IMG/VR virus record: IMGVR_UViG_3300028837_004139
Coordinates: 1 to 42,165 of that record
Length of the DNA: 42,165 nucleotides
Direction: 5' to 3' (one strand)
From: a virus
Shown here: positions 1 through 42,165 of the stretch, in pieces
Layout: every line of letters starts with the position of its first letter
Numbering within the stretch: the first letter of the stretch is position 1
Position numbers and translations under genes: made by a program
The notes under the pieces: model-generated
What the model saw: only the letters and a program-made list of their open reading frames with translations
Database searches by the model: none
Told to the model about the DNA's origin: nothing

Positions 1-585
1 TCATAACCTTTCCTCCTCAGGAACTTCTCCAACCTTTTTCGCCGGAGAGCCTATATATATTCCGTAGGAATCACAGTCCTTTGTAACAACTGAACCTGCG
101 CCTATTAAAGCCTCTCGGCGTATTGTTACTCCAGGTAGGATAATACTTCCAGCTCCTATTCTAGCTCCATAAGAGATGTATACACCGTCCCATTTTAAAG
201 GGAATCTCCTGGTGTGGCGAATTTTTCTAACTGCTAAAGTCATTACTTTAGGACCGAGATAGGCCTTAGCGCTAATATAAGTATGCTCTGCTATAAAGCA
301 CTGAGATTGAATAGCAACTTCTGCTTCTATGTTGATACTGCCCTCGAAGACGCAAAGGTGGCCTATTTTGGTACTAGAACCTATATTTGTATCAGGCCTT
401 AGGACGCAATAGTGGCCTATCATGACGTTGTGGCCTATATGACAGCCTTGTTCAATAACGGTTCCTTCACCTATTCTTACATCTTTAGCGATAATAGCTC
501 CAGGATGGATTCTGTAGAAGCCTCCTAGGAGTCTTTCATGGGAATCGTCTTCAAGGCATTTAGTGTAAAGCTCTTCTTCAGTCAT
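1..585 (-). CDS. Left-handed beta-helix (hexapeptide) acyltransferase
   Basis: The 194-residue protein is built almost entirely of hexapeptide repeats (IGEGTVI, IGHNVMIG, IGSSTKIG, IGAGSIILPG, IGAGSVVTKD) ending in the family's typical YIGSPAKKVGEV tail. Such proteins use acetyl- or acyl-CoA to O- or N-acylate sugars, as in the WbbJ/LpxA/NeuD-like acetyltransferases. The acceptor cannot be told from sequence. It is the last gene of the leftward block as seen in this window. Its final codons contain a GGAGG-like ribosome site and a TTATGA end, so another gene probably starts just beyond position 1. Together with the O-antigen-ligase-like protein at 38907-40520 it suggests modification of the host surface polysaccharide, which is inference. 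Confidence 0.88.
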   Translation of the reverse strand: MTEEELYTKCLEDDSHERLLGGFYRIHPGAIIAKDVRIGEGTVIEQGCHIGHNVMIGHYCVLRPDTNIGSSTKIGHLCVFEGSINIEAEVAIQSQCFIAEHTYISAKAYLGPKVMTLAVRKIRHTRRFPLKWDGVYISYGARIGAGSIILPGVTIRREALIGAGSVVTKDCDSYGIYIGSPAKKVGEVPEEERL

Positions 586-727: not shown

Positions 728-896
728 TTTTTACCTCCTTTTGTAAATCGTACTGCCAGTCTTCTTGATGATTACATCTTTGACATTCGTAGGTGCCGAA
801 GTAGGATCTTCCGCCCTGCTCGATATTGCTTAATACAACGAAGTAGTATCTGTGCCCGAGGATGAAACAGAGCAGCTTTTGGAGTTTTTTTCTCAT
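720..896 (-). CDS. Small DUF1660-like phage zinc protein (58 aa)
   Basis: Its ATG overlaps the queC stop (ATGA), with a GAGGAAAAG ribosome site, and its end overlaps the next start by eight bases. The protein starts basic (MRKKLQKLLCFILGH), and a C..GH element followed by CQRC resembles the small DUF1660 prophage proteins, which are short zinc-ribbon-like polypeptides of unknown function. The family assignment is from memory of the pattern only. It lies between queC and the 46-residue Cys-rich gene. Confidence 0.55.
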   Translation of the reverse strand: MRKKLQKLLCFILGHRYYFVVLSNIEQGGRSYFGTYECQRCNHQEDWQYDLQKEVKNG

Positions 897-1540
897 GACT
901 TTTCCTCTTTCATTAAAGGATCTTCAATTCCTGCTTCTTCAAAAGCCCTCGCTCTTTGTTTACAGCTGTCGCATTCTTTACAAGGTTTTTGTATATTGAG
1001 ATAACAGGACCAAGTCAATTCAAAAGGTACTCCTATTTTGGTTCCCATTAGGATTATATCTGATTTCTTCATATCGACTAAAGGTCTTTTTATCCGTAGG
1101 AATCCATGGTCTAATCCTTCTCTTAAAGCCCATTCCATGTTATGGAGGAATTTATCATGGCAATCAGGGTAGCTGCTATAATCTATAACATTCCAGCCTC
1201 CGTAGATTTCATCAGCGCCGGTTACTTTAGCCAAGGCGCCTGCGAAGGAGAGCATTATGATGTTACGGCCGGGGACGAAAGAAGGTGGAAGGCCGTTAGG
1301 AACTAGTACTTGTAAAGAAGGTGTAGTTATAGTAGAACTTATCCAATTAGGGAGACGGATATTATATTGGATTAGTTTGTTTTTAGCTAGTGCCAGAGCG
1401 CATTCTAATTCTCTAGTTGCTGACCTTTGCTCGTAGCTTATAAAAAAGGGTAGTACTTCTTCATCCCCTTTTATCTTGCAGGCGAAGTAATAGGCAACAG
1501 TTGAGTCAAGGCCGCCACTAAGTAGAGCGATTGCTTTCAT
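893..1540 (-). CDS. queC: 7-cyano-7-deazaguanine (preQ0) synthase QueC
   Basis: QueC converts 7-carboxy-7-deazaguanine to preQ0 using ATP and ammonia. The 215-residue protein opens with the PP-loop SGGLDS (residues 8-13) and ends with the zinc-site cysteine set (SCYLNIQKPC, then CKECDSCKQR), both hallmarks of QueC. Length fits the family (about 220). It starts inside the end of the upstream ATPase gene (23-base overlap), indicating translational coupling. It is the fourth step of a phage-encoded pathway with folE (7701-8276), queD (11314-11664) and queE (40708-41325). The product would feed the QueF-like and DpdA-like proteins for DNA modification. Confidence 0.96.
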   Translation of the reverse strand: MKAIALLSGGLDSTVAYYFACKIKGDEEVLPFFISYEQRSATRELECALALAKNKLIQYNIRLPNWISSTITTPSLQVLVPNGLPPSFVPGRNIIMLSFAGALAKVTGADEIYGGWNVIDYSSYPDCHDKFLHNMEWALREGLDHGFLRIKRPLVDMKKSDIILMGTKIGVPFELTWSCYLNIQKPCKECDSCKQRARAFEEAGIEDPLMKEEKS

Positions 1541-3160: not shown

Positions 3161-3610
3161 TCATAGCGTTGCATCCAAATCTCTTCTCCAGTAGAGGAGC
3201 CAGGTAGCATGTGTAGGTGTTTTAAGAAAAGACTTTACCTCTCCTGTTGGTAAATAGCCTGCTTTTAAAAGGTTCTTTAAGGCTTTATAGTTTCTTATAG
3301 AGGCTGTAGCAATAGTTCCTTTGGGAAACTGGCTCAGCATCCAAGCATGGATGCCAGGGATATAGGATCGAGCCGAATATAGAACCCTATTAGGGTTTTG
3401 AACCATAAAACCATAAGGCATAGGTTCGATTATAATATCAGGTTCGTTGCCCCAGTAGGTTCTAGTAATATAAATAGTATCTTCAGGCTTAGGCGCTGGA
3501 GCATCAGGGGTAAGAAAAGCGTTTGTTATCTGCTTCTCGAACTCCTTCTTCAATGCTGAGTCCATCGCAACAATGTCGTAAAACCATACAGTTCCTATGA
3601 GCGAGGGCAT
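3161..3610 (-). CDS. GNAT-like acetyltransferase (tentative)
   Basis: A 149-residue protein whose C-terminal half has the shape of a GNAT fold: a turn (LSQFPKGTIATAS), then RNYKALKNLLKAGYLPTG, which matches the usual N..A...L.K.GF element, then a final strand. The canonical acetyl-CoA loop (R/Q-x-x-G-x-G/A) is not evident, so activity is uncertain. The ATG at 3610 has a clear GGAGG seven bases upstream, even though this puts the first 107 bases inside the DpdA-like gene. An internal ATG at 3565 has no such site. Its placement directly after the DpdA-like gene makes a role in further decoration of the modified base conceivable but unproven. Confidence 0.55.
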   Translation of the reverse strand: MPSLIGTVWFYDIVAMDSALKKEFEKQITNAFLTPDAPAPKPEDTIYITRTYWGNEPDIIIEPMPYGFMVQNPNRVLYSARSYIPGIHAWMLSQFPKGTIATASIRNYKALKNLLKAGYLPTGEVKSFLKTPTHATWLLYWRRDLDATL

Positions 3611-4232
3611 TTTGGGCCTCCGTTAGTTTTAGGTTTATATAACCAGGAGTTGTTTTTAAACCATACCGGGTACCTAAGTAATGCTCTATCTTCTCACCTC
3701 GAGCTGCTAGTTTAATAGGCATTCCAGTGTCAATAGAAGTGACTTTACCTTGTAGGTCTGTTAGCTCTTGTAGCATTCTAAATCCGAAAAGATGTATAGG
3801 CTTAGGATAAGGAAAAGGTAGAATATCTCTAGAGCCTTTAAGATCATAAGGTATAGCGATGATATCGCTCGCAGCAGCGATTTCGTTCCAGCGATCTCGG
3901 TAGGAATCTAAAAGACAGCCTACTGCTTTGAAGAGTCCTCCCATTGTAATATCTACTAAGGCATCTATATACTCTGGCGGATCTCTAGGATTATCAGGAG
4001 GAACTATTACTTGGGCCTTTAAGGTTTCAGCGTATGCTTGTAGAGTAGCTAATGTAGCAGGATAATTATACTCATTAACCCCGTTATCGAGCCATAATGG
4101 CTTCCCTTCTCTAGAAAAATATTCAAGATATTCATCATGGATGAGCCAGGGAGCGATGGCATAGTTGAAGTCTTGGTATTTTTCGAATTCTTCGAGATGA
4201 GCCTTTGGTACTTCTAGTGCTAGGTAGATCAT
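3504..4232 (-). CDS. dpdA: TGT-like DNA 7-deazaguanine transglycosylase (DpdA-like)
   Basis: A 242-residue protein with signatures of the tRNA-guanine transglycosylase fold: PLWLDNGVNEYN (Asp49, in the place of the catalytic LDSGGF Asp), IVPPDNP (Asp80), IHLFGF (around 147-151, like the HLLG loop) and SIDTGMP (Asp168). It is shorter than bacterial Tgt (~375 residues) and lacks the CxCxxC zinc site. This fits phage DpdA proteins, which put 7-deazaguanines into DNA instead of tRNA. The window also encodes FolE, QueD, QueE, QueC and QueF, which strongly supports this reading. A GGGAG ribosome site precedes the ATG. The end overlaps the GNAT-like gene by 107 bases. Confidence 0.75.
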   Translation of the reverse strand: MIYLALEVPKAHLEEFEKYQDFNYAIAPWLIHDEYLEYFSREGKPLWLDNGVNEYNYPATLATLQAYAETLKAQVIVPPDNPRDPPEYIDALVDITMGGLFKAVGCLLDSYRDRWNEIAAASDIIAIPYDLKGSRDILPFPYPKPIHLFGFRMLQELTDLQGKVTSIDTGMPIKLAARGEKIEHYLGTRYGLKTTPGYINLKLTEAQNALAHRNCMVLRHCCDGLSIEEGVREADNKRFSYP

Positions 4233-4469: not shown

Positions 4470-4811
4470 CTACTCCTCTAAGTACCTAACTGGTTTCTTA
4501 TGCCCAACTGCGTAGTCGACCTCGCTACGGGTGCTCTCGCCTACATATCCGTTAATATTAATCACAAGAACCTCATCAGCTAGATCAATCTTCCGCTTGT
4601 GGACTTCGTCAACAATCTCTTTCACACCTTCTTGGTCGCCGATATGAGTCTTATCTTCCCCCTTAAAGTACCCTTCCGGTAGGGCACACCAGCTTAGTAC
4701 AATGTATCCTTGCTTGGTATACTCCCATTGGACTATTAACATCTCTGCTGTGAATCTAGTCGATCCGCATAAGCATAGAACTTTAGGAAATCCAAGATCT
4801 TTTCTGTTCAT
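4470..4811 (-). CDS. Nucleoside 2-deoxyribosyltransferase-like protein
   Basis: A protein of about 113 residues with the pattern KVLCLCGSTRF near the N-terminus, HKRKIDLADEVLVINI in the middle and GESTRSEVDYAVGHKKPVRYLEE at the end. This is the common phage family related to nucleoside 2-deoxyribosyltransferases (DUF4406-like), which cleave or exchange bases of deoxynucleosides. The start at 4811 overlaps the polymerase stop as ATGA and has GGAG eight bases upstream. A longer in-frame start at 4838 would lie inside the polymerase gene. Its substrate is unknown. In a phage that makes 7-deazaguanine bases, a nucleotide-handling role is plausible but unproven. Confidence 0.75.
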   Translation of the reverse strand: MNRKDLGFPKVLCLCGSTRFTAEMLIVQWEYTKQGYIVLSWCALPEGYFKGEDKTHIGDQEGVKEIVDEVHKRKIDLADEVLVININGYVGESTRSEVDYAVGHKKPVRYLEE

Positions 4812-7123
4812 GATATCTTCTCCATCGTCGGCCCCCAACAGGAGCCTGTTTTTATTGATATAGGGAAGCAGTAGTTTTCGAGTTCAGGAATAGGTCGGGA
4901 CATTACCCTTTTAACCCAGTCTTTAGCTGCTTTCACAGGAAGACACTCTGGAACCTGGAAGAGGATCTCATCGTGGACTGCTAGGAGAGGCTTTATTTTC
5001 CAACTCGCTTGTTCTGTTCTCGTTAAAGAAGTCGAGCATACGTCTCCAGCAGCACTTTGGACTTTAAAATTCAAAGCCTCTGTGATAGAATTGCAATATC
5101 TTACTCTACCAAAGACAGATGTTAGATATCCTTGATCTTTCCATTCTTTAATATTAGCCTCTCTCCATCTTAAAAGGTTTGGATACTTATTGAGAAGCTT
5201 ACCCAGCCATATCTCAGCTTGAGTATCTGAGACTTTAAACTCTAAAGCGATAGAGCGTTTAGAGCGTCCGTAGATTGCTCCAAAGGTCACCCTCTTTGCG
5301 GGGCTGACGTCTAAGCTAGTATAGTTTTCAGGAAGAGGCTTGCCAAAAAGCATTTCGTGGGTCTCACCGTGAATATAGACACCTGAAGCTATCATATCAA
5401 GTATTACTTGCTCTTCTGCTTGAATAGCAGCTACGAGCAGCTCCAGCATATTATAGTCAGCGTCTAAGAGATAGTATCCGGGATCAGGAATGAATAGATC
5501 TCTTGTTTCATCTGGTATATTTTGAAGATTAGGATTTCTGCTGGATAAGCGGCCGGTAGCAGTTCCGGAGGAGTCGAAGATGGTATGGACTCTACCGTCA
5601 GGTTTTATTCTTTGGCTAAGGCCTATTAAGTAAGTTGATTCTATCTTCTGAGGTTTTCGATAATCCAGGATTTGGTTTATGAATTTTGCTTGATCCTCAG
5701 TATTAGCTGCTAGCTCTAGTTTTTTTAGCTGTTTTACATCCGTCTTAGGATTTCCTTTTTTAGTATATTTAACTGGAAGCCCTAACTTAGCCAACATCTT
5801 ACCAACATCTTGTGGAGACCTTGGGTTGATACCTCGGCGTAATAGTTCGTTTTCTAAGGCTTCCAGTTTAGGGCCTATGTTGATGGTTTTTTCAATCAGG
5901 GCGACTTTGTCGATTAGGACGCCTCTGGCCATGATGCTGATTAAGGCTTCTGTTAAAGGGATAGTAATCTCCTTCATCGCCTTCAAGAGGTGAGCGGGCA
6001 TGTCTGCCTCTTGCGCCAATCTGACACGCCAGGTAACATCAGCATCACGGCATGAGTATAGGTTTAGCTCTTCGGGAGAGAGATTCCAGACGCCTCGTTT
6101 TCTAGCTGCTTCTTTATAGGGCAGGACGTCTGTGTACCAAGATCGCAACCAAGACAAATCACGGGGGAGGTCAGAGTAAAGCATCCCGGCAGCGAGCTTA
6201 GTATCCCAACTAAGGTTGTGCATAGGGTGATCCTGGACAGTAAGCCAGAAATTGTCAAAGGAAGCGTTTTGGATCGTTTTGGGAACTCTTGGGTCTTGCA
6301 ACCATGGTTCGAAGACTTTCCATCTTGGGTCATTATAAGGATCTCCTCTATTTAAAGCTACTGATACGGCTTCATATTCAATACCGCTGAAAGAGAAGCC
6401 TATTAGTTTATCATAGTAAGGATCTAAGCCTGTTGTTTCAAGGTCAAAGGCGAAGCCTAGAGGCTGAACCTCATTATGCTCTTCTAATAACCTGCCTAGG
6501 TGGGCGGCAGAAGGGTCGTAGGTATATCTCGTCTTCATCCGTTGGAAACGTTTTCCAGCAGCTAGGAGGAGAGCTGCTTTATTGAAAACGTTGATGATGG
6601 CGAGTAGGTAACCCTTCTGCCGGATTGCATAGGCGGGATGGAAGGCAGGTAAAAGTAGTTGGCTATCACCTGATTCTGTGAGAGGAGTGCCTTGGTAAGC
6701 CGTTATGCCTTTTTTACTTGTTAGAGCCTGTAGAGCTATTTCACCTAGAGGGATAATAAGTTTAGGTTTATACCCGTACAGCTCTTTAAGGAGATTATGG
6801 GTACAGGCTTGTATTTCGCTTGGCAGAGGATTCCTATTACCAGGCGGCCTGCATCTAACTACATTGATGATCGCAGTCCTTTTTAACCCTTCCCATCTTA
6901 GAGGAAATTTTTGGCTTATAAAAGCCTTTGGTTCAATAGAACTACGTAGGACTACGCCTAAGAGCCTACCTGCACCGCCGACGAAAGGCTTTCCGTTAAT
7001 ATCCTCATCCTCGCCAGGAGCCTCGCCTACTAGTAAAATATCACAAGGCTTAGGTCCAGTACCCCAAACGATTTTCTTCCTGGTTTCATGCAACTGACAT
7101 TGTTGGCATTCCTGTGTCTCCAC
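4808..7123 (-). CDS. Uracil-DNA glycosylase / family-A DNA polymerase fusion
   Basis: One reading frame of about 771 codons joins two enzymes. Residues ~1-190 form a family-4-type uracil-DNA glycosylase with four cluster cysteines (CQQC; RCRPPGNRNP; EIQAC), GEAPGEDED and FHPAY. Next comes a DEDDy 3'-5' exonuclease (FDLETTG ~228-234, NASFD ~288-292, YSCRD ~358-362), then a polymerase I catalytic domain: motif A DADYNMLELL, motif B KRVTFGAIYG, motif C VHDE. The residue matching E. coli Phe762 is Phe. All catalytic residues appear intact. I prefer GTG at 7123 (GGAG seven bases upstream) over the TTG at 7129. It is the only DNA polymerase seen in the window, so it is probably the replicative enzyme. 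Confidence 0.94.
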   Translation of the reverse strand: METQECQQCQLHETRKKIVWGTGPKPCDILLVGEAPGEDEDINGKPFVGGAGRLLGVVLRSSIEPKAFISQKFPLRWEGLKRTAIINVVRCRPPGNRNPLPSEIQACTHNLLKELYGYKPKLIIPLGEIALQALTSKKGITAYQGTPLTESGDSQLLLPAFHPAYAIRQKGYLLAIINVFNKAALLLAAGKRFQRMKTRYTYDPSAAHLGRLLEEHNEVQPLGFAFDLETTGLDPYYDKLIGFSFSGIEYEAVSVALNRGDPYNDPRWKVFEPWLQDPRVPKTIQNASFDNFWLTVQDHPMHNLSWDTKLAAGMLYSDLPRDLSWLRSWYTDVLPYKEAARKRGVWNLSPEELNLYSCRDADVTWRVRLAQEADMPAHLLKAMKEITIPLTEALISIMARGVLIDKVALIEKTINIGPKLEALENELLRRGINPRSPQDVGKMLAKLGLPVKYTKKGNPKTDVKQLKKLELAANTEDQAKFINQILDYRKPQKIESTYLIGLSQRIKPDGRVHTIFDSSGTATGRLSSRNPNLQNIPDETRDLFIPDPGYYLLDADYNMLELLVAAIQAEEQVILDMIASGVYIHGETHEMLFGKPLPENYTSLDVSPAKRVTFGAIYGRSKRSIALEFKVSDTQAEIWLGKLLNKYPNLLRWREANIKEWKDQGYLTSVFGRVRYCNSITEALNFKVQSAAGDVCSTSLTRTEQASWKIKPLLAVHDEILFQVPECLPVKAAKDWVKRVMSRPIPELENYCFPISIKTGSCWGPTMEKIS

Positions 7124-7505
7124 GAGCAAACTCCGTTGTTATAGGTATACCACCTCTGGGCTTCCAATCCATACGGATGATTAGCCATAAAGGTTTTATT
7201 GTTCCAAAGATGTCGTTGAGTATTTTGATGTTGATACTTTCAGCAAAGCCTTTAAAGTTTCTAAAGGCATGGAGGTAGAGCTTTAAAGACTTTGTTTCAA
7301 GAGTATAGTCTTTGGGAGAGAATCTTATAATAATCTCCGCCCAGTCAGGTTGAGAGGTGATAGGGCATAAAGAGGTAAATTCTTCCGAGCGAAAGCTTAT
7401 AGCTCCGCTAGAGGAGCCTTTAAACAGGGGTATCGACTGTAATATTTCTCTTGTCGGTTCCGCCTGTGGTTTGTAGCCCCTTCCGCTCTTGAACTCTGTT
7501 ACCAT
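7086..7505 (-). CDS. queF: QueF-type 7-cyano-7-deazaguanine reductase
   Basis: The 139-residue protein matches short (Bacillus-type) QueF. It has the catalytic cysteine and aspartate in FTSLCPITSQPDWA (C47, D54), the NADPH-binding signature LETKSLKLYLHAFRN (~69-83) and the WKPRGGI end motif. QueF reduces preQ0 to preQ1 with NADPH. One difference stands out: the FHE triplet of B. subtilis QueF (His96-Glu97, from memory) reads FAE here, so the histidine is replaced by Ala88 while Glu is kept. The ATG at 7505 has GGAG eight bases upstream. It overlaps the DUF3310 gene by 86 bases and the polymerase gene by 38. Confidence 0.92.
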   Translation of the reverse strand: MVTEFKSGRGYKPQAEPTREILQSIPLFKGSSSGAISFRSEEFTSLCPITSQPDWAEIIIRFSPKDYTLETKSLKLYLHAFRNFKGFAESINIKILNDIFGTIKPLWLIIRMDWKPRGGIPITTEFARGDTGMPTMSVA

Positions 7506-7704
7506 GCTTTTTACTCCATTGTCTTATTAACCTATTAAGACACCATCTGGCTTTTAGAAGATCATCAAGGCCATTTTTTTCTTTGTAACGACAGATGTAT
7601 TTTACTATATTGCCTTCATGGTGGTTAAGATCCATGCTTTCGATTAAATGAACTGGCATGATGGTGCCTTTTTTGGGTTTGTAGTGATCAGGTCTTTTTA
7701 TCAT
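7420..7704 (-). CDS. DUF3310 phage protein
   Basis: A 94-residue protein starting with the DUF3310 pattern: RPDHYKP, then HHEGNIVKYICRYKEKNGLDDLLKARWCLNRL, close to the consensus (HY... GN.iKY..R...K....DL.KA..yL). DUF3310 proteins are frequent near phage nucleotide-metabolism genes and have been called nucleotide-kinase-like, but their biochemistry is unsettled. The last ~28 residues, read over the start of queF, are low in recognisable structure. The start has GGAGGCGATAAA directly upstream and overlaps the folE stop as ATGA. Confidence 0.85.
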   Translation of the reverse strand: MIKRPDHYKPKKGTIMPVHLIESMDLNHHEGNIVKYICRYKEKNGLDDLLKARWCLNRLIRQWSKKHGNRVQERKGLQTTGGTDKRNITVDTPV

Positions 7705-8276
7705 TTTATCGCCTCCAAAAACTCCTGTTTAACATGGGGCATTACTAAAAAATACCCTTTAAAAGAGTTCATTACGACTCTGGCTGTAGTCTCTACTCCT
7801 CTACATTGCATACAGCCGTGATCGCCTATTACAGTACAACCGCAACCGTGAGGTTCAAGTTTAGTCATGATGAAGTCGGTGATTTCTTCTGTAATATCTT
7901 CTTGAAGCTTCCAGCCTGAGGCTATGTAATCAACTATCCTGGCTAATTTAGAAAGCCCTACGACACGGTTTTTAGGTATATAGCCTACGTGAACGGTATA
8001 GTGGACTCGTTCGAGATGATGAGGACAGCGTGACCAGGCTTCATGGCCTTTTAGGATTACCATTTGATCGTAATCTGCTGGGAAAACGGGAAGCTCAGGT
8101 TCTGAAGCTTGGACTTCTTCACGGAGCATTTTAGCCATTCTAGTGGGAGTGTCGATGAAGTTAGGATCGGAAGTGTCGATGTTTAGGCTTTCTAGAAGAT
8201 CTGCAACTGCTCGTTCGGTTGTACGGGGCTTCCAGAGTTTAGAGGCTTTAGTTAGGATCTGGAGGTCTTTTTTCAT
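7701..8276 (-). CDS. folE: GTP cyclohydrolase I (FolE)
   Basis: FolE turns GTP into dihydroneopterin triphosphate, the first step of both folate and 7-deazaguanine synthesis. The 191-residue protein has the zinc ligands C84 and H87 (RCPHHLE) and C155 (DHGCMQCRG), plus HVGYIPKNRVVGLSKLARIV. The usual RRLQxQERLT segment reads SGWKLQEDIT, so it is a divergent phage form. It is coupled to neighbours by ATGA overlaps on both sides. With queD, queE and queC in the same genome, its role is most likely supply of preQ0 rather than folate. Confidence 0.95.
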   Translation of the reverse strand: MKKDLQILTKASKLWKPRTTERAVADLLESLNIDTSDPNFIDTPTRMAKMLREEVQASEPELPVFPADYDQMVILKGHEAWSRCPHHLERVHYTVHVGYIPKNRVVGLSKLARIVDYIASGWKLQEDITEEITDFIMTKLEPHGCGCTVIGDHGCMQCRGVETTARVVMNSFKGYFLVMPHVKQEFLEAIK

Positions 8277-11313: not shown

Positions 11314-11664
11314 TTAAACCTCCGCCCATGATGTTGGTGTTTCGTATACTCGGACGCTATCTATTTCCCTTGTAGGCTTTCTACTTAGCAAAAAATAGAG
11401 CTCGTCGCTTATATATCTAACTAAGTTCTCCGCAGTTGGGTTAAGGAGATAGTCGTTTAGAGTAGAGTGATCGAGTTTACTAGCTACAGTGTTGAGACAA
11501 GATTTTAAATGCTGAAAATCTATAACCATTCCAGTACCAGGATCTACAGATCCTTTTACTACTATCCTAACCAACCATCTATGCCCGTGCATTTTTGAGC
11601 AGGGGCCAGGATGATTAGGAAGGTAATGAGCAGCATCGAAATGTTGGGTTATGGAAACTTTCAT
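11314..11664 (-). CDS. queD: 6-carboxy-5,6,7,8-tetrahydropterin synthase QueD
   Basis: QueD converts dihydroneopterin triphosphate to 6-carboxytetrahydropterin, step two of preQ0 synthesis. The 116-residue T-fold protein shows the zinc histidines H13 (FDAAH), H26 and H28 (HGH), the catalytic cysteine C22 (CSKMHGH), the LDHSTLND segment and PTAENL with the substrate-binding Glu. All are characteristic and intact, and the length is typical. A GGAGG-type site precedes the ATG. It sits between a small membrane protein and a zinc-ribbon gene in the leftward block. Confidence 0.95.
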   Translation of the reverse strand: MKVSITQHFDAAHYLPNHPGPCSKMHGHRWLVRIVVKGSVDPGTGMVIDFQHLKSCLNTVASKLDHSTLNDYLLNPTAENLVRYISDELYFLLSRKPTREIDSVRVYETPTSWAEV

Positions 11665-14897: not shown

Positions 14898-15146
14898 TTA
14901 TCCTCCTATTTTAAAACCTTCTTTATCATACTGCTGACCAAGGCCTAGGCCTAAGCCTGTGCCATAAACCTCATAGCAATTAAGGCACATTATAGCCCAA
15001 CAACCTGAGGAATTTGTCTTTCCGTCTACAAAGCCATCTTCCAATAGACCTTCACAAATATTACACTTCTTAGGCATTTCAGAAAGCCAACGCTTTCTTT
15101 CTGTTTTAATTTGGTGATTAGTAAAAGCTTGCTTTACTGAACCCAT
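14898..15146 (-). CDS. Zinc-finger phage protein (82 aa)
   Basis: Two CxxC pairs (CNIC ~28-31 and CLNC ~54-57) separated by ~22 residues with GFVDGKTNSSGCWAIM between them form a zinc ribbon. After it comes a Gly/Leu-rich GTGLGLGLGQQY segment. This arrangement is frequent in phage hypothetical proteins. A TATTATGGG start follows AGGAGGATAT. It is one of the first genes transcribed leftward from the control region. Confidence 0.7.
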   Translation of the reverse strand: MGSVKQAFTNHQIKTERKRWLSEMPKKCNICEGLLEDGFVDGKTNSSGCWAIMCLNCYEVYGTGLGLGLGQQYDKEGFKIGG

Positions 15147-15158
15147 AATATTATCCTC

Positions 15159-15347
15159 CTACTCTGCGAGGCAATCTTCAGCGCAATCCTTACATACTCT
15201 ATAAATGCCAAATGGAGTCTTAACGCTTCTCATATAACTCTCAAAATATTTAACTCCATACGTATGGCTAGGATTGCCATTAGGCGATGTCTTACTTTCA
15301 TCGAAGTGTGAAATGTGCTCACACTTACACTTCTCTTATTCGCTCAT
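15159..15347 (-). pseudogene. Small Cys-containing phage protein with in-frame TAA at codon 4
   Basis: A clear ribosome site (AGGAGGATATT) and ATG at 15347 lead into MSE, then TAA at 15336-15338. The same frame stays open for 58 further codons with a protein-like sequence: EKCKCEHISHFDE, then SPNGNPSHTYGVKYFESYM and VCKDCAEDCLAE, ending TAG at 15159-15161. The paired cysteines look like a conserved zinc-type phage protein. No in-frame ATG, GTG or TTG near the break would rescue it, so the gene is broken or read through. Confidence 0.55.
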
Positions 15348-15392
15348 AATATCCTCCTATTTTTTGACGTGATAATATTTCGACATGATCAT

Positions 15393-15421
15393 ATTGTATC
15401 AAATTTTGATGATGATTTCAA
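15393..15421 (-). promoter_or_regulatory. Predicted sigma70 promoter, leftward
   Basis: On the minus strand TTGAAA (15416-15421) and TACAAT (15393-15398) are separated by 17 bases, each box matching the consensus at five of six positions. It is about 45 bases upstream of the first small gene of the main leftward operon (start 15347), so it is a good candidate for driving the early genes. Confidence 0.5.
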
Positions 15422-15439
15422 ATTGAAAATTTTGAATGA

Positions 15440-15900
<461 letters not shown>

Positions 15901-15917
15901 TCATATATTGTTTCAAT

Positions 15918-15962
15918 TCAAACTATTTCACATCAAACTATTTCACATCAAATTATCTCAAT
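15918..15962 (+). repeat. 15-bp tandem iterons (two exact, one degenerate)
   Basis: The unit TCAAACTATTTCACA occurs exactly twice (15918-15932, 15933-15947), followed by a third copy with changes (15948-15962, TCAAATTATCTCAAT). Iterons of this size beside an AT-rich dyad are typical of replication-initiator or regulator binding sites. Confidence 0.65.
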
Positions 15963-15979
15963 ACAATATACGGTATCAT

Positions 15980-16018
15980 TATAATGCACGTATACGATGA
16001 TGATAAACGTGCATTATA
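15980..16018. promoter_or_regulatory. 12-bp perfect inverted repeat (operator or hairpin)
   Basis: TATAATGCACGT (15980-15991) and its exact complement (16007-16018) enclose a 15-base spacer. It lies 17 bases downstream of the 59-residue gene at 16035-16214 and could terminate that transcript, although no T-run follows. It could instead be a dyad for protein binding in the putative origin. Confidence 0.5.
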
Positions 16019-16034
16019 TCATGCCGTGCATTGA

Positions 16035-16214
16035 TTATGCTGACGCCTTGCGTTTTAACTCTGCATCCTCCTCCGACTTCGTCACTACCAAACCTGCTTT
16101 CTGTGCTTTCTTAATCATCAACTGATGCCATACTAACCGCCTTGTGCCGTATGCTTTACGCTTCTCATCCGCTTGAATCAATGCTTCGATTTTTTCTTGT
16201 GAATAATTCGCCAT
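16035..16214 (-). CDS. Hypothetical helical protein (59 aa), paralogue of 14360-14638
   Basis: The ATG at 16214 follows AAAGGAGGTGATATATATT, so it is preferred over an upstream GTG at 16226. The product is a charged helical protein (MANYSQEKIEALIQADEKRK...) that aligns along its length with the C-terminal half of the 92-residue protein at 14360-14638. It stands alone within the AT-rich control region, with its own predicted promoter, which suggests a regulatory or origin-associated role. Its GC content is visibly higher than its surroundings. No named family is recognised. Confidence 0.7.
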   Translation of the reverse strand: MANYSQEKIEALIQADEKRKAYGTRRLVWHQLMIKKAQKAGLVVTKSEEDAELKRKASA

Positions 16215-16252
16215 AATATATATCACCTCCTTTCATCATTTATTATGAACAT

Positions 16253-16281
16253 ATTATATCAAAATATCATACAAATATCAA
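16253..16281 (-). promoter_or_regulatory. Predicted sigma70 promoter, leftward
   Basis: On the minus strand TTGATA (16276-16281), a 17-base spacer and a perfect TATAAT (16253-16258) lie about 39 bases upstream of the 59-residue gene start at 16214. This is the best -10 box in the control region and probably drives that gene. Confidence 0.55.
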
Positions 16282-16624
16282 ACCTAAAATGTTCAATGAT
16301 ATACATATGTTACGGCAACATTAAAAACATGAACAATTTCAACACATTACGTCATTATGATAACATATATCATATACATATCATCACATCATCATCATCA
16401 CGCATAACATCATCATAATATCATCATACATCACTCTATCACTATACACACATCATGTCACAAACATGGCCCCCCATTTCCGGCCCCGTCCTATTATGAA
16501 CCCATCTCTCAATTAATCCTCAAAATGAAAGTCTACCATGGGTGAATGGTAGAGTTAAAATAAAGCAAGCTAAAGCTCGAGAGTTAGAACAAAGGAAATT
16601 CAAAGTTATTTTTAACGATTTCAA
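16282..16624. other. Non-coding control region
   Basis: No gene is supported here. Up to about 16450 the sequence is AT-rich with many ATCATC and CATCAT runs and degenerate copies of a TTTCAAtATgTTA-type motif also found in the large inverted repeat. Around 16468-16493 there is a short C-rich stretch. A 7-bp hairpin lies at 16533-16552 (CTACCAT...ATGGTAG), about 70 bases upstream of the rightward promoter, and could be an operator. Beyond these I see nothing definite. Confidence 0.5.
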
Positions 16625-16653
16625 TTGACATCCAGGAAATAGAATGATATACT
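16625..16653 (+). promoter_or_regulatory. Predicted strong sigma70 promoter, rightward (late genes)
   Basis: TTGACA (16625-16630), a perfect -35 box, and TATACT (16648-16653), a five-of-six -10 box, are separated by exactly 17 bases. Transcription would start near 16660, just before the first rightward gene at 16678. It is the only strong promoter-like sequence I saw ahead of the whole rightward structural block. Confidence 0.65.
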
Positions 16654-16677
16654 TTGTATAAAGATAGGTCTTAAAAA

Positions 16678-16839
16678 ATGCCTAAAGGTTTTGAATCATG
16701 TGTCAGCAAAGGAGGTAGAGTTAGAACGAAGACGTTATCAGGAGGGAGGTATTTGCATATTTGTTTTTTAGGAGGGAAGAGCTATAGTGGCGAGGTTAAG
16801 AAGAAGGTTGGATCGGAGATTAAAAGAGGAAAGAAGTGA
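16678..16839 (+). CDS. Small basic phage protein (53 aa)
   Basis: The frame encodes MPKGFESCVSKGGRVRT, HICFLGGKSYSGEVK and a Lys/Arg-rich end. It belongs by appearance to a common phage family of tiny basic proteins found just ahead of packaging or head genes. The predicted promoter leaves a leader of only ~17 bases. The stop overlaps the GTG of the next gene as GTGA. Function unknown. Confidence 0.65.
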   Translation: MPKGFESCVSKGGRVRTKTLSGGRYLHICFLGGKSYSGEVKKKVGSEIKRGKK

Positions 16840-36074: not shown

Positions 36075-38983
36075 TGCCTAGTGCAGCTGAGATAGCTTTA
36101 GAGGCAATGAATCAGGCTACAAGTCTTTTTCAGGTACCAGCGGATATATCTCCGAGAATTCTTGAGACTAAAACCCTAAGGAGACCTGATGAGGAGAGGG
36201 AGGAGTATACTAGATTTAAAGGAGAGCATCGTAACGAGATGTTAAGGATTTTAGGGCTTTTGAAGGAAGGGCCTGAGCCTTCGCTTAGCGCTAGAGAAGA
36301 GCTTTATGAGAGATATCCTATCTATACTAAAGAAGGCTTGAAGCATGGCATCATCGGTCTGGAGCCTTTATCAGAATCAGAGTACCAAGCTCTAGATCCT
36401 AAAATAAGAAAAGAAATGGAATCCTTCTTTGGTGAAGTTCATCTTGAGGAGATGAAGAAGATTGAAACTCCTGTTGATGCTAGAAAACTACAAAAAGAGC
36501 ATGGTTTAAAAGAGCCTTTTTGGCTAAACCCTCCTGAGTGGGCTGGAGGAATCGCAGCTGGGATTATTAAAGCTCCTGTTAGGCGAGGTGCGGGGCTAGT
36601 AGGAAGGGAGATAGCTGCTGAGTTGACTTTAGGAGCGAGTGAGTTAGCTAGAGCCTTACCGAAGGTTGCTAAAAAGGTTCCTAGTGCTATTGATAGCGTG
36701 GTTGATAGTTTAAAGAGGAAGTATACATGGAGACAGTTGACAGAAGAAGGAGCTGTTGCGGCTGACCTCTGGCCAGGGCAGCAGATGACTGCAGCAGGGA
36801 GACGGTTGCAGGAGAATATCAAAATGCCCAAGTTCGTCGAAAGGACTTGGGGAGCCCCTAATCTTAGAAGATTGTTGATACCGGCAGTAGATGATTTGGA
36901 AAAAGAAGCAAAGATTCTCTTTAGAGGTCATCGAGTAGGTATGGCTAAGAGACAGGAGGTTATTAAAGAAGCTACTGAGCCTTTATGGGATCTTACTCCG
37001 GAAGAGCATGAGGTAGCTCTGCAGTATTTGGCTAGGGAAAGTCCTTATGACGTAGCTGATACTTTAGGAATGACTGTCGATGAGTTATTTACTCCTAAAT
37101 GGGAAAACGCTCGAAACGCTGCTGCTAAGGTCAGGAATGTATATCACAGATGGGGCCTTGAGGCTACAGGATACTCTAAAAAAACTGGCGAAGCGATGCT
37201 TAAGAAAGAAACTTATTTAAAAAACCTCATGACCTATCTCCCTGATATGGCTATGGTTAAAGAGTATCCTGAATTGTTTGGGCCTAAGCTAGCAGATATG
37301 GAAAACCCTCATTTAAGGAAAAAGTTCAGAGCTGATTTGTCTAGGTTTATGAAGAATAAGGGTATTATCAAAGCTCATAAAGAGGAGATGTTACAGATCT
37401 TGGATCTTAAGTATCTTACAACTAAGTCATTTGGGCAGCTATCTCAGGATATCGAGACAGCTAAGCTGTTTCAGAGGTTAGAAGAACTACCCGGCTACGT
37501 CTTCGATGATATGAAAGGTTTAAAAGAATTCCAAAGCCAGTTCAATGAAGCTTTTGAAAAAGCTGGAATAGATCCTGAGAAAGGATTGAAGAAGATAGGA
37601 TTGTATAGTAGCCAATTTAAACAGATCCCTGATGTTGATAAAGCTTTGAACTTGGCTAATAAACTAATCCGCAGCGATGTCGCAAACGTACTTGAAGATC
37701 AAGCTAAAGTAGCTTCTGAGTTTGGCAGGTTATTTGAAAGGCTTTTGGCCCCATGGAAATTTGGAAAGGTAGTCTTAAGGTTCCCTACTCATTGTAGGAA
37801 TATTATGTCGAATTGGATCTTAAACGATATAGGAGGACTTCCCTTTTATAGATTAGATTATTATACCAGCGCCCTGAGGCAGTTTAGATCTAAAGGAGAT
37901 ATATATAAATTAGCTAAAGATAAAGGCTTACTCTTGGCCACGTTTAGAGAGCATGAGCTGCTAAGGCTAGAGAGGTCCTGGGATGAGAAATCAGGCTTTA
38001 TAGGCCTTTTGAGCAAGGTTACTAAGCCTGCTGCGGATCTATACCAAGCTGAAGAGCAATGGTTTAAACTGGCTAAATTCATGTGGCATATGGATAACGA
38101 GGTTAAAAGAGGCGTAATGGATATCGACGATGCTGTCGAGGCGGCAATGGAGTCGACTTTTGATTATGGTACTAGTACAGCTTTCCAAAGGACTGTTAAA
38201 AGAACCATGATGCCGTTTGCTACATGGCCTTTTAAATCTATTCCTTATATGGCTAGGATGGCAGTAGAGCATCCTGTCAGATTTGGTAAATGGCCTGCTA
38301 TGTTCTATGGCGTGTCTCATTATTCAGCTGATAAGTTGCTTGGCAGCAATCAAGAGTGGAAAAGGCTTCAAGGCCAAATGGCTGATTATCAAAAACAAAA
38401 GCGTTGGCTTTTTTTGCCTTGGAAAGATGAAAAGGGTAGGCTGCAGTTGATAGATTTGACCTATATCTTGCCTTGGGGCGATATAGCAGAGCTAGGCCAG
38501 CAAGGGTTTAAAAGAGTAATGCAGAATCCAGCTGTTACTATTCCTTTTGATTTGTCGAAGAATAGAGATTTTATGGATAGGAAAATAGTCGAAGATTGGG
38601 AGAGAGGAAAAAAGGAAGGTTATTTGAAACAAGCTGCTTATATTTATAAACAACTATCTCCATCCTCATTCCCAGGCTCTTGGGACTGGGAGAAGATGAT
38701 GGATGTAGTCGGTGGTGCAGGAAGAAGAGAGCCTGGTGTTATGACTCCGAAGCAAGCAGTGTTGTATAATCTAGGACTTAAAATTACGCCTACTACTGAG
38801 AGTTTTATCAAGGAGAGTTTTGAAAGCAGGTATGATAGAATGAGAAGCGAGCTTGAGCAAAAGTTTGATAGGGATATTGAGAGAGAACATAGACCTAAAG
38901 AGAGATCTAAGATTCGGAGGGAGTACCGGAGGCAGTACCTGGGCTTGGAGAAGGAGTATCGTCAACTGAGACGGGGGCAGTAA
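36074..38983 (+). CDS. Large internal virion protein (969 aa, putative ejection protein)
   Basis: The largest gene of the window. Start GTG after GGAGAGGAATA. The N-terminal ~100 residues are charged helices. An Ala/Gly-rich segment (~170-205, GGIAAGIIKAPVRRGAGLVG) could insert in membranes. The rest is long helical repeats with aromatic patches (LPFYRLDYYTSALRQF, FATWPFKSIPYM). No lytic transglycosylase motif is obvious. Size, last place in the late block and helical character fit podovirus DNA-ejection proteins. The last 77 bases overlap the opposite-strand O-antigen-ligase-like gene. Confidence 0.65.
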   Translation: MPSAAEIALEAMNQATSLFQVPADISPRILETKTLRRPDEEREEYTRFKGEHRNEMLRILGLLKEGPEPSLSAREELYERYPIYTKEGLKHGIIGLEPLSESEYQALDPKIRKEMESFFGEVHLEEMKKIETPVDARKLQKEHGLKEPFWLNPPEWAGGIAAGIIKAPVRRGAGLVGREIAAELTLGASELARALPKVAKKVPSAIDSVVDSLKRKYTWRQLTEEGAVAADLWPGQQMTAAGRRLQENIKMPKFVERTWGAPNLRRLLIPAVDDLEKEAKILFRGHRVGMAKRQEVIKEATEPLWDLTPEEHEVALQYLARESPYDVADTLGMTVDELFTPKWENARNAAAKVRNVYHRWGLEATGYSKKTGEAMLKKETYLKNLMTYLPDMAMVKEYPELFGPKLADMENPHLRKKFRADLSRFMKNKGIIKAHKEEMLQILDLKYLTTKSFGQLSQDIETAKLFQRLEELPGYVFDDMKGLKEFQSQFNEAFEKAGIDPEKGLKKIGLYSSQFKQIPDVDKALNLANKLIRSDVANVLEDQAKVASEFGRLFERLLAPWKFGKVVLRFPTHCRNIMSNWILNDIGGLPFYRLDYYTSALRQFRSKGDIYKLAKDKGLLLATFREHELLRLERSWDEKSGFIGLLSKVTKPAADLYQAEEQWFKLAKFMWHMDNEVKRGVMDIDDAVEAAMESTFDYGTSTAFQRTVKRTMMPFATWPFKSIPYMARMAVEHPVRFGKWPAMFYGVSHYSADKLLGSNQEWKRLQGQMADYQKQKRWLFLPWKDEKGRLQLIDLTYILPWGDIAELGQQGFKRVMQNPAVTIPFDLSKNRDFMDRKIVEDWERGKKEGYLKQAAYIYKQLSPSSFPGSWDWEKMMDVVGGAGRREPGVMTPKQAVLYNLGLKITPTTESFIKESFESRYDRMRSELEQKFDRDIEREHRPKERSKIRREYRRQYLGLEKEYRQLRRGQ

Positions 38984-40520
38984 AGTTTTTTATAGCTTTC
39001 TCAACTTCTTCTAAATCCTTCTTAGCCGGTTCAAAATAAGGATTCAAATACAAAGCCATTTGAAAAGCGTTTCTAGCCTGTAGTAAATTTCCATCCGCAG
39101 CAAATATTTCACCGCATATTGTATAGTGCGCCCATTCTATCTTTTCACCGTCAAAATGGTGTTGAGATCTTTGCGCATAGATACTAGCAATAGTAGTGTT
39201 TATGTCCATGTAGATCTCTGCCGCATGACTTAGGTACATAGTTCTTGTATTATCTCTTTTCAAGGCTTCGTTTATAAGTGCTACTGCTTTTTTAGGATCT
39301 TTTTCTCTTAAAGAGAGTTGGTAGTAGTAATTTCCTATCATCGGCTTTAAGGAATGGAGATAGGTTAGATAGAAAATTATTAAAGAGATAGGAATAGTCC
39401 ATATTAAAGGTAATTGTATTACAGCTACAGGCCCACATATTACCCCTGCTAAAGCCCAGAAGGGCAAACTCGTCGCTGCGGATCTGAAAGGGTAGAAGAA
39501 AAAAGCATCTATTAATAGAGCAATTAATCCTCCTACTAAAAAAGGCTCAGGTAAGGCTCTTATTAAAACCGAGCCCAGGAAAAGAACCATAAGCCCTAAT
39601 CCGAGAACACCTGCTTCTACTAGTGTCTGGAGGTACTCCTGATGAAACCTCTTCCCGAGCTCATATTGCTGAGGCTTTCGTCTTGCTTGAATTCTAAATA
39701 TTCTACGGCGAAGTACCCTAAGACCATTACCGAAGATAGGATTTTGTTTGAATAAGTCCCAGCCGTAGATATAATAATGCTTACGACCACCCCAAGCGGC
39801 TTTGAGACCAGAGCGCCAAGGAGACATTGTTACTAGTATTAAAAACCCTGCTGCGAGGAGTAGGAGGTAAGGGTTGAATATAGAGAGGCCTATTATACAT
39901 CCTAACTGCGCTGCTCGGCAGTGGCTGTAGCCTATCGCTAAGAGGATAATAGAGGTTGGGATTAGGTAATAATAACTATAGACGCAAGCCAAATATAAGC
40001 CAATAAAAAAAGGGACTACTAAATAACTACCTGTATAATTAGGATTACCAAGCCAAGCATCTAGTCTAAGAAGCCTCGTTTTTGTTTCTCTTAGGACACC
40101 GTGATAGAATCTATCTAAAGGATCACGTTGGCTTGTTTCTTGGATTAAGCCGTATAAAGCCATAGCTACTGCTGGTAGGAAGATTGCTACTAAAAGAGGG
40201 TCTCTAGGTATCTGGCGACAAAATTGGAAAAAAATAAACAGCGCCCACCATCGAGGGATGTCTTGAAAGGAGTTTTTGACGTTATCAGACCAAGTGCAGG
40301 TTAGTGTTAGATAAGAGCAGAAGAGTAAAAGAGATAATGATGGGAGGTCTGCTACAGCAGGGAAAAGAAGGAAGAGAAACCCTGCAGCGCAGAGTACTCC
40401 CATCATAAAGATCAAAAGCTGATTCTTAGCCTCAGGATATCCATAATCCCAAGGGCCTGAGATGCGGAAGATTGGGACTAAAGCCAAAGTGAGGGCGAGC
40501 AGCCAAAAAGTATAGTTCAT
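38907..40520 (-). CDS. O-antigen ligase/polymerase-like membrane protein with TPR tail
   Basis: A 537-residue protein with about ten hydrophobic segments in the first ~380 residues. It has two signatures of the Wzy/WaaL O-antigen ligase superfamily: WLGNPNYTGSYLVVPF and GNGL...HQEYLQTLVEAGVLGLGLMV, the latter with the periplasmic-loop Arg/His residues. Residues ~390-510 hold two or three TPR-like repeats (KAVALINEALKRDN; GNLLQARNAFQMALYLNPY). Such enzymes join or polymerise lipid-linked glycans. In a phage it would change host surface sugars, for instance to block further infection. It overlaps the 63-residue gene as ATGA and the ejection gene tail-to-tail by 77 bases. Confidence 0.85.
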   Translation of the reverse strand: MNYTFWLLALTLALVPIFRISGPWDYGYPEAKNQLLIFMMGVLCAAGFLFLLFPAVADLPSLSLLLFCSYLTLTCTWSDNVKNSFQDIPRWWALFIFFQFCRQIPRDPLLVAIFLPAVAMALYGLIQETSQRDPLDRFYHGVLRETKTRLLRLDAWLGNPNYTGSYLVVPFFIGLYLACVYSYYYLIPTSIILLAIGYSHCRAAQLGCIIGLSIFNPYLLLLAAGFLILVTMSPWRSGLKAAWGGRKHYYIYGWDLFKQNPIFGNGLRVLRRRIFRIQARRKPQQYELGKRFHQEYLQTLVEAGVLGLGLMVLFLGSVLIRALPEPFLVGGLIALLIDAFFFYPFRSAATSLPFWALAGVICGPVAVIQLPLIWTIPISLIIFYLTYLHSLKPMIGNYYYQLSLREKDPKKAVALINEALKRDNTRTMYLSHAAEIYMDINTTIASIYAQRSQHHFDGEKIEWAHYTICGEIFAADGNLLQARNAFQMALYLNPYFEPAKKDLEEVEKAIKNFTAPVSVDDTPSPSPGTASGTPSES

Positions 40521-40708
40521 GTTATAACCTCCCCATCGACATAGATTTTCTTCTGTTTGTCGTCTACAGCACAGGCAAAGATTAAAGGCTCTTTCTTCTC
40601 GCTTGTAGCTGCTGTGATCTGGAGCATTGCAAAGGGTACTAGTTCCCCGCTTTGCATCCTCATTGCTCTTCCGTAGAGCTTGCTGTAGTTTATGAATTCG
40701 TATTTCAT
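40517..40708 (-). CDS. Hypothetical protein (63 aa)
   Basis: A 63-residue beta-rich protein (FINYSKLYGRAMRM, LVPFAMLQITAATSEKKEPLIFACAVDDKQKKIYVDGEVIT). Its start shares one base with the queE stop, and its end overlaps the O-antigen-ligase-like gene as ATGA, so it is translated as part of the operon. No family is recognised. Confidence 0.6.
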   Translation of the reverse strand: MKYEFINYSKLYGRAMRMQSGELVPFAMLQITAATSEKKEPLIFACAVDDKQKKIYVDGEVIT

Positions 40709-41325
40709 TATTTTGCTCCTATATACTTATGTAATTGGAAATTCAGTTGAATATCATAGATGCCTTTATCTATTAGTTTATCAAGTAAGGCCCTAGGATC
40801 TACCTTCCCCCAAACAGGAGAAATAGCTATTTTAGCCTGACAACCGCTTTGCTTGAACCATCGGTAGCGTTCTAGAGCAGTGGGAAGGTCTAAAGAACTT
40901 TCCATGATGATTTTGATATAATCTCCGTAGCGAAGATCAGCATAAACTTCTCTGTGGAAAGGTTGGTCGAGTTTGCAATCTACTACCCAGCAGACTTTCC
41001 AATCTTTAGGGGGGACTATATTTCCGTTAGTTTCTACTGTTATATGACGGATACCTGTATTATGAAGGTTCCATATTAAAGACTTCAAGTTGCTATATTG
41101 CTCTAAAGGCTCTCCTCCTGTTATAGTGACTTTAGGAGTCCAGACTTGCTTGATTATTTCTCTAACGTCCATCTCTCTTCCATCCAAGCGGCTTCTAGCT
41201 TGCGGTGTATCACAATAAAAGCATTTTAGGCTACACCCTTGAAAACGGATGAAAGTAGAGATAGTACCTTGACCAAAATGGTTTACTTCACCGTCGATTG
41301 AAGTAAAAATCTCATTTATTCGCAT
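40708..41325 (-). CDS. queE: 7-carboxy-7-deazaguanine synthase QueE
   Basis: A 205-residue radical-SAM enzyme that rearranges 6-carboxytetrahydropterin to 7-carboxy-7-deazaguanine, step three of preQ0 synthesis. It begins INEIFTSIDGEVNHFGQGTISTF, has the 4Fe-4S CxxxCxxC motif in GCSLKCFYCDT (C31, C35, C38) and TITGGEPLEQ for SAM binding. Length and motifs fit QueE. Its start lies inside the end of the coiled-coil gene. It is far from queC, queD and folE only because of where the window is cut. Across the ends it belongs to the same leftward block. Confidence 0.94.
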   Translation of the reverse strand: MRINEIFTSIDGEVNHFGQGTISTFIRFQGCSLKCFYCDTPQARSRLDGREMDVREIIKQVWTPKVTITGGEPLEQYSNLKSLIWNLHNTGIRHITVETNGNIVPPKDWKVCWVVDCKLDQPFHREVYADLRYGDYIKIIMESSLDLPTALERYRWFKQSGCQAKIAISPVWGKVDPRALLDKLIDKGIYDIQLNFQLHKYIGAK

Positions 41326-41521
41326 CTTGGACCCTCCTCAAGGCTTCCTGTAAAAGCTTCAGCCTTTCTTCTAGTTGTTCTATTCTTTCGATTAGTTTCC
41401 TGAAAATAGGCAAAGGCCAGGCGGTTTGGTTTATTAGATCTGGTATCTGGGTATTTAGCCTTTCAGCTAGGGACTCTATAGCATCTACTTCAGCTTTGTT
41501 TAGTAATTGAAGCTCTGGCAT
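41312..41521 (-). CDS. Coiled-coil protein (69 aa)
   Basis: A 69-residue helical protein. The C-terminal half (FRKLIERIEQLEERLKLLQEALRRVQDANK) is a clear coiled coil, and the N-terminal half is a short helix pair. AAAGGAGGCTAAAG precedes the ATG. It overlaps queE by 14 bases. It may be a small scaffold or regulatory partner; no family is recognised. Confidence 0.6.
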   Translation of the reverse strand: MPELQLLNKAEVDAIESLAERLNTQIPDLINQTAWPLPIFRKLIERIEQLEERLKLLQEALRRVQDANK

Positions 41522-41523
41522 CT

Positions 41524-42165
41524 TTAGCCTCCTTTTATATCATCAAATAGTACTGGGATTTTTTCCTGAAACTCTTGTAATATAGGCACCATTACTTCTA
41601 TCATCTGCGGATGAGCAGCTTTTGAGGTTCGCAGTTTCAGGATATGTCTCCACTCACGAATGTTGGCCGTCATTACAATTTCGGTTTTGAGAGAGTTTGG
41701 AAGCACGGAGCGGGCTTGTTATGGAGACCAGCCCTTTCGAACTAACCAAATATATCTATCTTCTGATTCAATACATGCGTTAAGCCATGCTTGCTCCATT
41801 ATAGGAAATCGAGCAACAGCAAGATATTCTCCTGGCTCAACATCTACCCAAGGCGGTATCACAAATGTCACCCCACCCTTATAATTACAATACCTTGTAC
41901 TCTCCTGACTATAAGCGACAAGCCGGTGTCGAACAATCTCGTGGGTTACTCCTCGATCGCAGATGATTTTGACAGTTATGTTAGAATGTTCAATGACTGA
42001 TTCATGGCCCCTTTTCAGAATACCTGCTACAAATTTCTTAGCTGAATCAGCAGTGATTTCATCCTCTGATTTATAGCACGTTCTTCCTGCTATTTCAATC
42101 ATATGGAGTGGATCGCTTCCGAAACTCATTCCCTGTATAAATAGAATTTCATGGCTTGGTTTTAT
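41524..42165 (-). pseudogene. thyX: Flavin-dependent thymidylate synthase ThyX, broken by in-frame TAA and cut at the window edge
   Basis: ThyX makes dTMP from dUMP with FAD, NADPH and methylene-tetrahydrofolate. The frame entering from the right edge reads PSHEILFIQGMSFGSDPLHMIEIAGRTCYKS (shown in parts) and then the signature RHRLVAYSQESTRY. It runs to GWSP and a TAA (41719-41721), after which the same frame continues QARSVLPNSLKTEI and NIREWRHILKLRTSKAAHP, the normal C-terminus, to 41524. Relatives have Gln at the stop (GWSPQQARSVLP, from memory), so one CAA to TAA change explains it. The first codons lie outside the window; the ATG at 42129 is internal. It is either inactivated, read through or a base error. 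Confidence 0.82.

Follow-up and report, generated by a model that had tools for sequence, protein, structure and literature searches.

The stretch analysed here, referred to below as the window, is the whole of the IMG/VR virus record IMGVR_UViG_3300028837_004139, 42,165 bases from an uncultured phage of ~42 kb, with a GC content of 41.8%. At its right end, the minus strand carries a gene for a flavin-dependent thymidylate synthase (ThyX) that is interrupted by a stop codon and leaves the window 3 codons short of its start:

41524..42165, minus strand: thyX (flavin-dependent thymidylate synthase); 213 codons and the terminal TAA lie in the window, and the first 3 codons are cut off at its edge
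41719..41721, minus strand: internal TAA in the thyX frame, at residue 149 counted from the window edge, in the context TCT CCA TAA CAA GCC
41524..41718, minus strand: 64-residue C-terminal block after the stop, with the terminal stop; it has its own match to ThyX structures and is conserved as in intact relatives
41312..41521, minus strand: next gene downstream, for an unknown protein of 69 aa, starting with an ATG 2 bases past the terminal stop of thyX

Translation of the minus strand from 42165 to 41524 gives 148 residues, the TAA (41721-41719), 64 residues and the terminal TAA, so that the single interruption described in the first-pass annotation was placed correctly. The internal stop sits in the motif GWSP*QARSVLPNS (the asterisk marks the stop), and the residues around it are ...RYIWLVRKGWSP*QARSVLPNSLKTEIVMTANIREWRHILKLRTSKAAHPQMIEV.... 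That both halves are intact and in the same frame, as had also been claimed, is borne out by the profile searches: read through the stop, the protein matches Pfam Thy1 (PF02511) at 1.2e-49 over residues 18-205 (profile positions 8-191 of 191), and a six-frame search gives one single Thy1 match (E 1.7e-50), spanning the two parts in one frame with 1 TAA inside. The sequence AAGGAGGC at the end of thyX is likely the ribosome-binding site of the 69-aa gene, and the minus-strand genes flanking thyX, coding for this 69-aa protein, a QueE-like radical SAM protein, a 63-aa unknown and an O-antigen-ligase-like protein, are all intact.

Alone, the C-terminal block matches solved ThyX structures at 1.6e-9; its residues 2-59 align to residues 158-215 of the T. 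maritima ThyX chain, and its residue 30, an arginine, falls on chain position 186. We take this position to be Arg174, on the assumption that the 232-residue T. maritima chain bears a 12-residue tag. R174 of T. maritima ThyX has a role in dUMP activation (PMC8316439). The TAA breaks the reading frame ahead of the residue aligned with Arg174 and thereby before the C-terminal part of the active site; a product stopping there, of ~151 residues, would lack this dUMP-activating arginine and therefore should be inactive.

At the opposite end of the record, two features bear on the missing start:

1..19, minus strand: probable thyX ribosome-binding site (GAGGAGG) and start (ATG at 4..2)
585..1, minus strand: hexapeptide-transferase gene, its TGA overlapping the putative thyX ATG (ATGA)

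Every one of 53 full-length relative matches has its start codon exactly 3 codons upstream of window residue 1 (48 ATG, 5 GTG). Read on the minus strand, the left end of the window closes with ...CCTGAGGAGGAAAGGTTATGA, the last codons of the hexapeptide-transferase gene, and holds the arrangement GAGGAGG-N7-ATGA; when the ends are joined with 5 bases missing, the ATG comes exactly 3 codons before ThyX residue 1. GGAGG and ATG at such spacing occur 41 times in 84,330 positions, which makes it unlikely that the pair stands at the very end by chance. We infer that only about 5 bases are missing between the two ends of the window and that the record was opened in codon 2 or 3 of thyX; though linear, it probably represents an all but complete genome, circularly closed or permuted. 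As the two ends would then join in frame, both the ribosome-binding site and the start of thyX are probably intact, which would leave the TAA as the only visible lesion of the gene.

Relatives, conservation and the use of stop codons

The gene was compared with ThyX relatives encoded at 80 viral loci and at most 65% identical to it, near-identical strains lying outside the comparison; the closest intact copies, in IMG/VR contigs, reach this upper limit of identity. In its sequence, in the motif RHRLVAYSQESTR and in the C-terminal block, the window gene is like the phage-borne ThyX/Thy1 family (PF02511), from which it differs by the one in-frame TAA. The position of the stop had been called normally glutamine, and it is so in 77 of the 80 relatives, while 3 have glutamate; that relatives use CAA there is right for 28, but 49 have CAG. 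The homologous phage sequences, which the first-pass annotation had named as a check on its reading, thus carry a stop in none of the 80 cases, and the TAA is not common to related genes with a conserved extension, as programmed readthrough would require. A degenerate pattern search of the viral collection for the motif with TAA gave no match, nor did one for the window's own 23-base context with a YAA codon (C or T first), near-identical records being outside the scope of both.

The sequence after the stop is in the same state as the sequence before it. Conserved columns are kept without deviation at 40/40 positions before the stop and at 26/26 after it, and the ratio of conservation after the stop to that before it is 1.30, against 1.20 +/- 0.07 (mean, SD) in 67 sequences. 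Judged by these measures, the gene shows no sign of drift behind the TAA and does not appear to be decaying.

Four relatives, at loci L020/L021 and L048/L051, have one in-frame TAG each, elsewhere in ThyX and at non-conserved positions. When TAG is read as glutamine, the coding density of the flanking DNA rises from 0.87 to 0.92 and from 0.84 to 0.93 in the gut-phage loci L020 and L048, and genes flanking ThyX at these two loci have several in-frame TAGs. The four are probable translation-table-15 phages and make a useful contrast to the window thyX, not a parallel. What the window gene shares with such stop-recoded phages (TAG=Gln) is an in-frame stop where glutamine fits; there, however, the stop is TAG and the sites are many, whereas the window has a single site, with TAA, and no suppressor tRNA. 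Suppressor tRNAs are often, but not always, present in stop-recoded phages.

In a recoded genome the stop would be in frame in many genes and unused as a terminator; in the window, TAA is the commonest terminator among 57 chosen ORFs (TAA 28, TGA 15, TAG 14). When proteins from 158 related loci were compared with the window, a test that covers the genes with relatives there and less than half of the window, the thyX TAA was the one stop that interrupted a homologous gene in frame on the sense strand; other in-frame stops were gene junctions or antisense shadow alignments and were discarded. Mechanically reading TAA as glutamine does raise the coding density, to 0.930 from 0.886, but 81 TAAs then fall in frame and long frames are fused, and we read this gain as the joining of neighbouring genes; the closest intact relatives, L002 and L004, likewise gain in-frame TAAs under the same reading, 24 each.

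Origin of the in-frame TAA

The interruption of thyX is very probably a lone substitution, whether it is a recent nonsense mutation, a variant among strains or a wrong base in the metagenome assembly. We see about an even chance that a real recent mutation lies behind it; a sequence error, somewhat less probable than that, is still a substantial possibility. With a single nonsense substitution of any of these origins the window gene has in common one changed base, no frameshift, no other lesion and no later drift, and we observe no difference. An ordinary cargo thyX, one base away from a working copy, would have received a nonsense change at a conserved glutamine codon; this point mutation would just have cost the phage that was sequenced, or a fraction of its population, its ThyX, unless the assembled base is wrong. 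If the TAA terminates thyX, the product would be truncated and inactive, and the phage would then depend on host thymidylate synthesis. Because other damage is absent, the gene may have lost its function only very recently, or may still work. One nonsense codon in a phage thyX that is otherwise intact is an ordinary finding; a search of a literature library for papers on phage thyX with premature stops found none. The significance is mainly one of annotation: the entry for this gene should read thyX with a single internal stop and should not claim recoding.

Besides a recent event and a sequence error, both of which stand, the first-pass annotation had allowed for a suppressed stop. The TAA would then be leaky, with host ribosomes inserting glutamine or another amino acid at a low or moderate rate and making some full-length ThyX. 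We consider this unlikely. The downstream block is fully conserved, as such leakage would lead one to expect, but a recent mutation predicts the same. Similarly, Belinky et al. (PMC7918605) report in-frame stops between conserved flanking sequences to be widespread in bacterial genes and over-represented in those of the mobilome, but many of these stops, by their account, exist for short periods only. ARAGORN found no tRNA genes in the window, suppressors included, which leaves a host tRNA as the possible source, and no RNA element in the window matched Rfam. Together with the regular use of TAA as a terminator, the absence of the stop from all relatives and of a second in-frame stop from the window genes with homologues, this leaves suppression without positive support. 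The sole point favouring readthrough, a weak one, is the stop context, with proline before and C after (CCA TAA C): the Pro-TAA-C context, weak for termination in E. coli, may be somewhat leaky, and a C follows the terminal TAA in 0 of 28 cases among the chosen ORFs of the window. As a counterpoint, the sequence would look the same whether the TAA is a new nonsense mutation or is suppressed efficiently in an unusual host. Readthrough frequent enough in the host to be useful, which would make the TAA a natural case of ochre suppression in a metabolic gene of a phage, is a shade less likely again; proof of suppression would make it an unusual example of natural ochre readthrough in a phage that uses the standard code.

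Two further explanations fare worse than a leaky stop. An ORF starting with GTG (41706..41524, 60 aa) could in principle make the C-terminal block separately, to pair with the N-terminal part as a split ThyX, but no Shine-Dalgarno-like sequence precedes GTG 41706 (CTCCATAACAAGCCCGCTCC) and all 80 relatives have a sense codon at the stop position, none being split there; with no ribosome-binding site, a restart of the C-terminal half was rejected, and a split enzyme is highly improbable. Least credible of all is a change of code that turns TAA into an amino-acid codon throughout the genome, for which just one in-frame TAA at a glutamine position speaks: TAA is the main terminator, on which ground TAA=Gln was ruled out as the genome code, the 28 ORFs that it ends often have another in-frame stop within a few codons, 267 CAA and 199 CAG codons are in use, all other homologous genes of the window are free of in-frame TAAs, and at L020 and L048, where TAG is likely reassigned, the density rises with several in-frame TAGs in flanking genes.

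Cargo genes and the wider genome

No thyX was detected in capsid or terminase relatives of the phage (20 records searched, several of them fragments), and the window's capsid was absent from the thyX carriers tested; within this phage group thyX thus probably behaves as exchangeable cargo, and is plausibly dispensable. Its cargo status is consistent with a tolerated loss. For window positions 20000-42165, no similar DNA was found in GenBank phages. The capsid relatives come from MAG contigs of Thermoflexales, Bipolaricaulota and Planctomycetota only, and a host assignment based on them was rejected, the MAG taxa being too scattered and the binning too uncertain.

Genes of the 7-deazaguanine pathway are spread along the minus strand:

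893-1540, minus strand: QueC
7701-8276, minus strand: GTP cyclohydrolase I
11314-11664, minus strand: QueD-like
40708-41325, minus strand: QueE-like

Their presence suggests that the phage modifies guanines in its own DNA through a preQ0-type pathway. On the same strand, the product of 3504-4232 has, by eye only, a likeness to DpdA-kind transglycosylases, with no PHROGs match. The O-antigen-ligase-like (Wzy_C) gene at 38907-40520 (minus strand), placed between the structural module and queE, codes for a membrane protein of 537 aa, an unusual cargo for a phage and again with no match in PHROGs. About 1.7 kb at 15146-16836, near the switch between the two gene orientations, hold no convincing gene; a stretch within them reads as (HT)n, a simple repeat of the CA/TG type. 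At 4808-7129 (minus strand), a single ORF of 773 aa fuses, according to Pfam, a uracil-DNA-glycosylase-superfamily domain to a family A DNA polymerase with a 3'-5' exonuclease.
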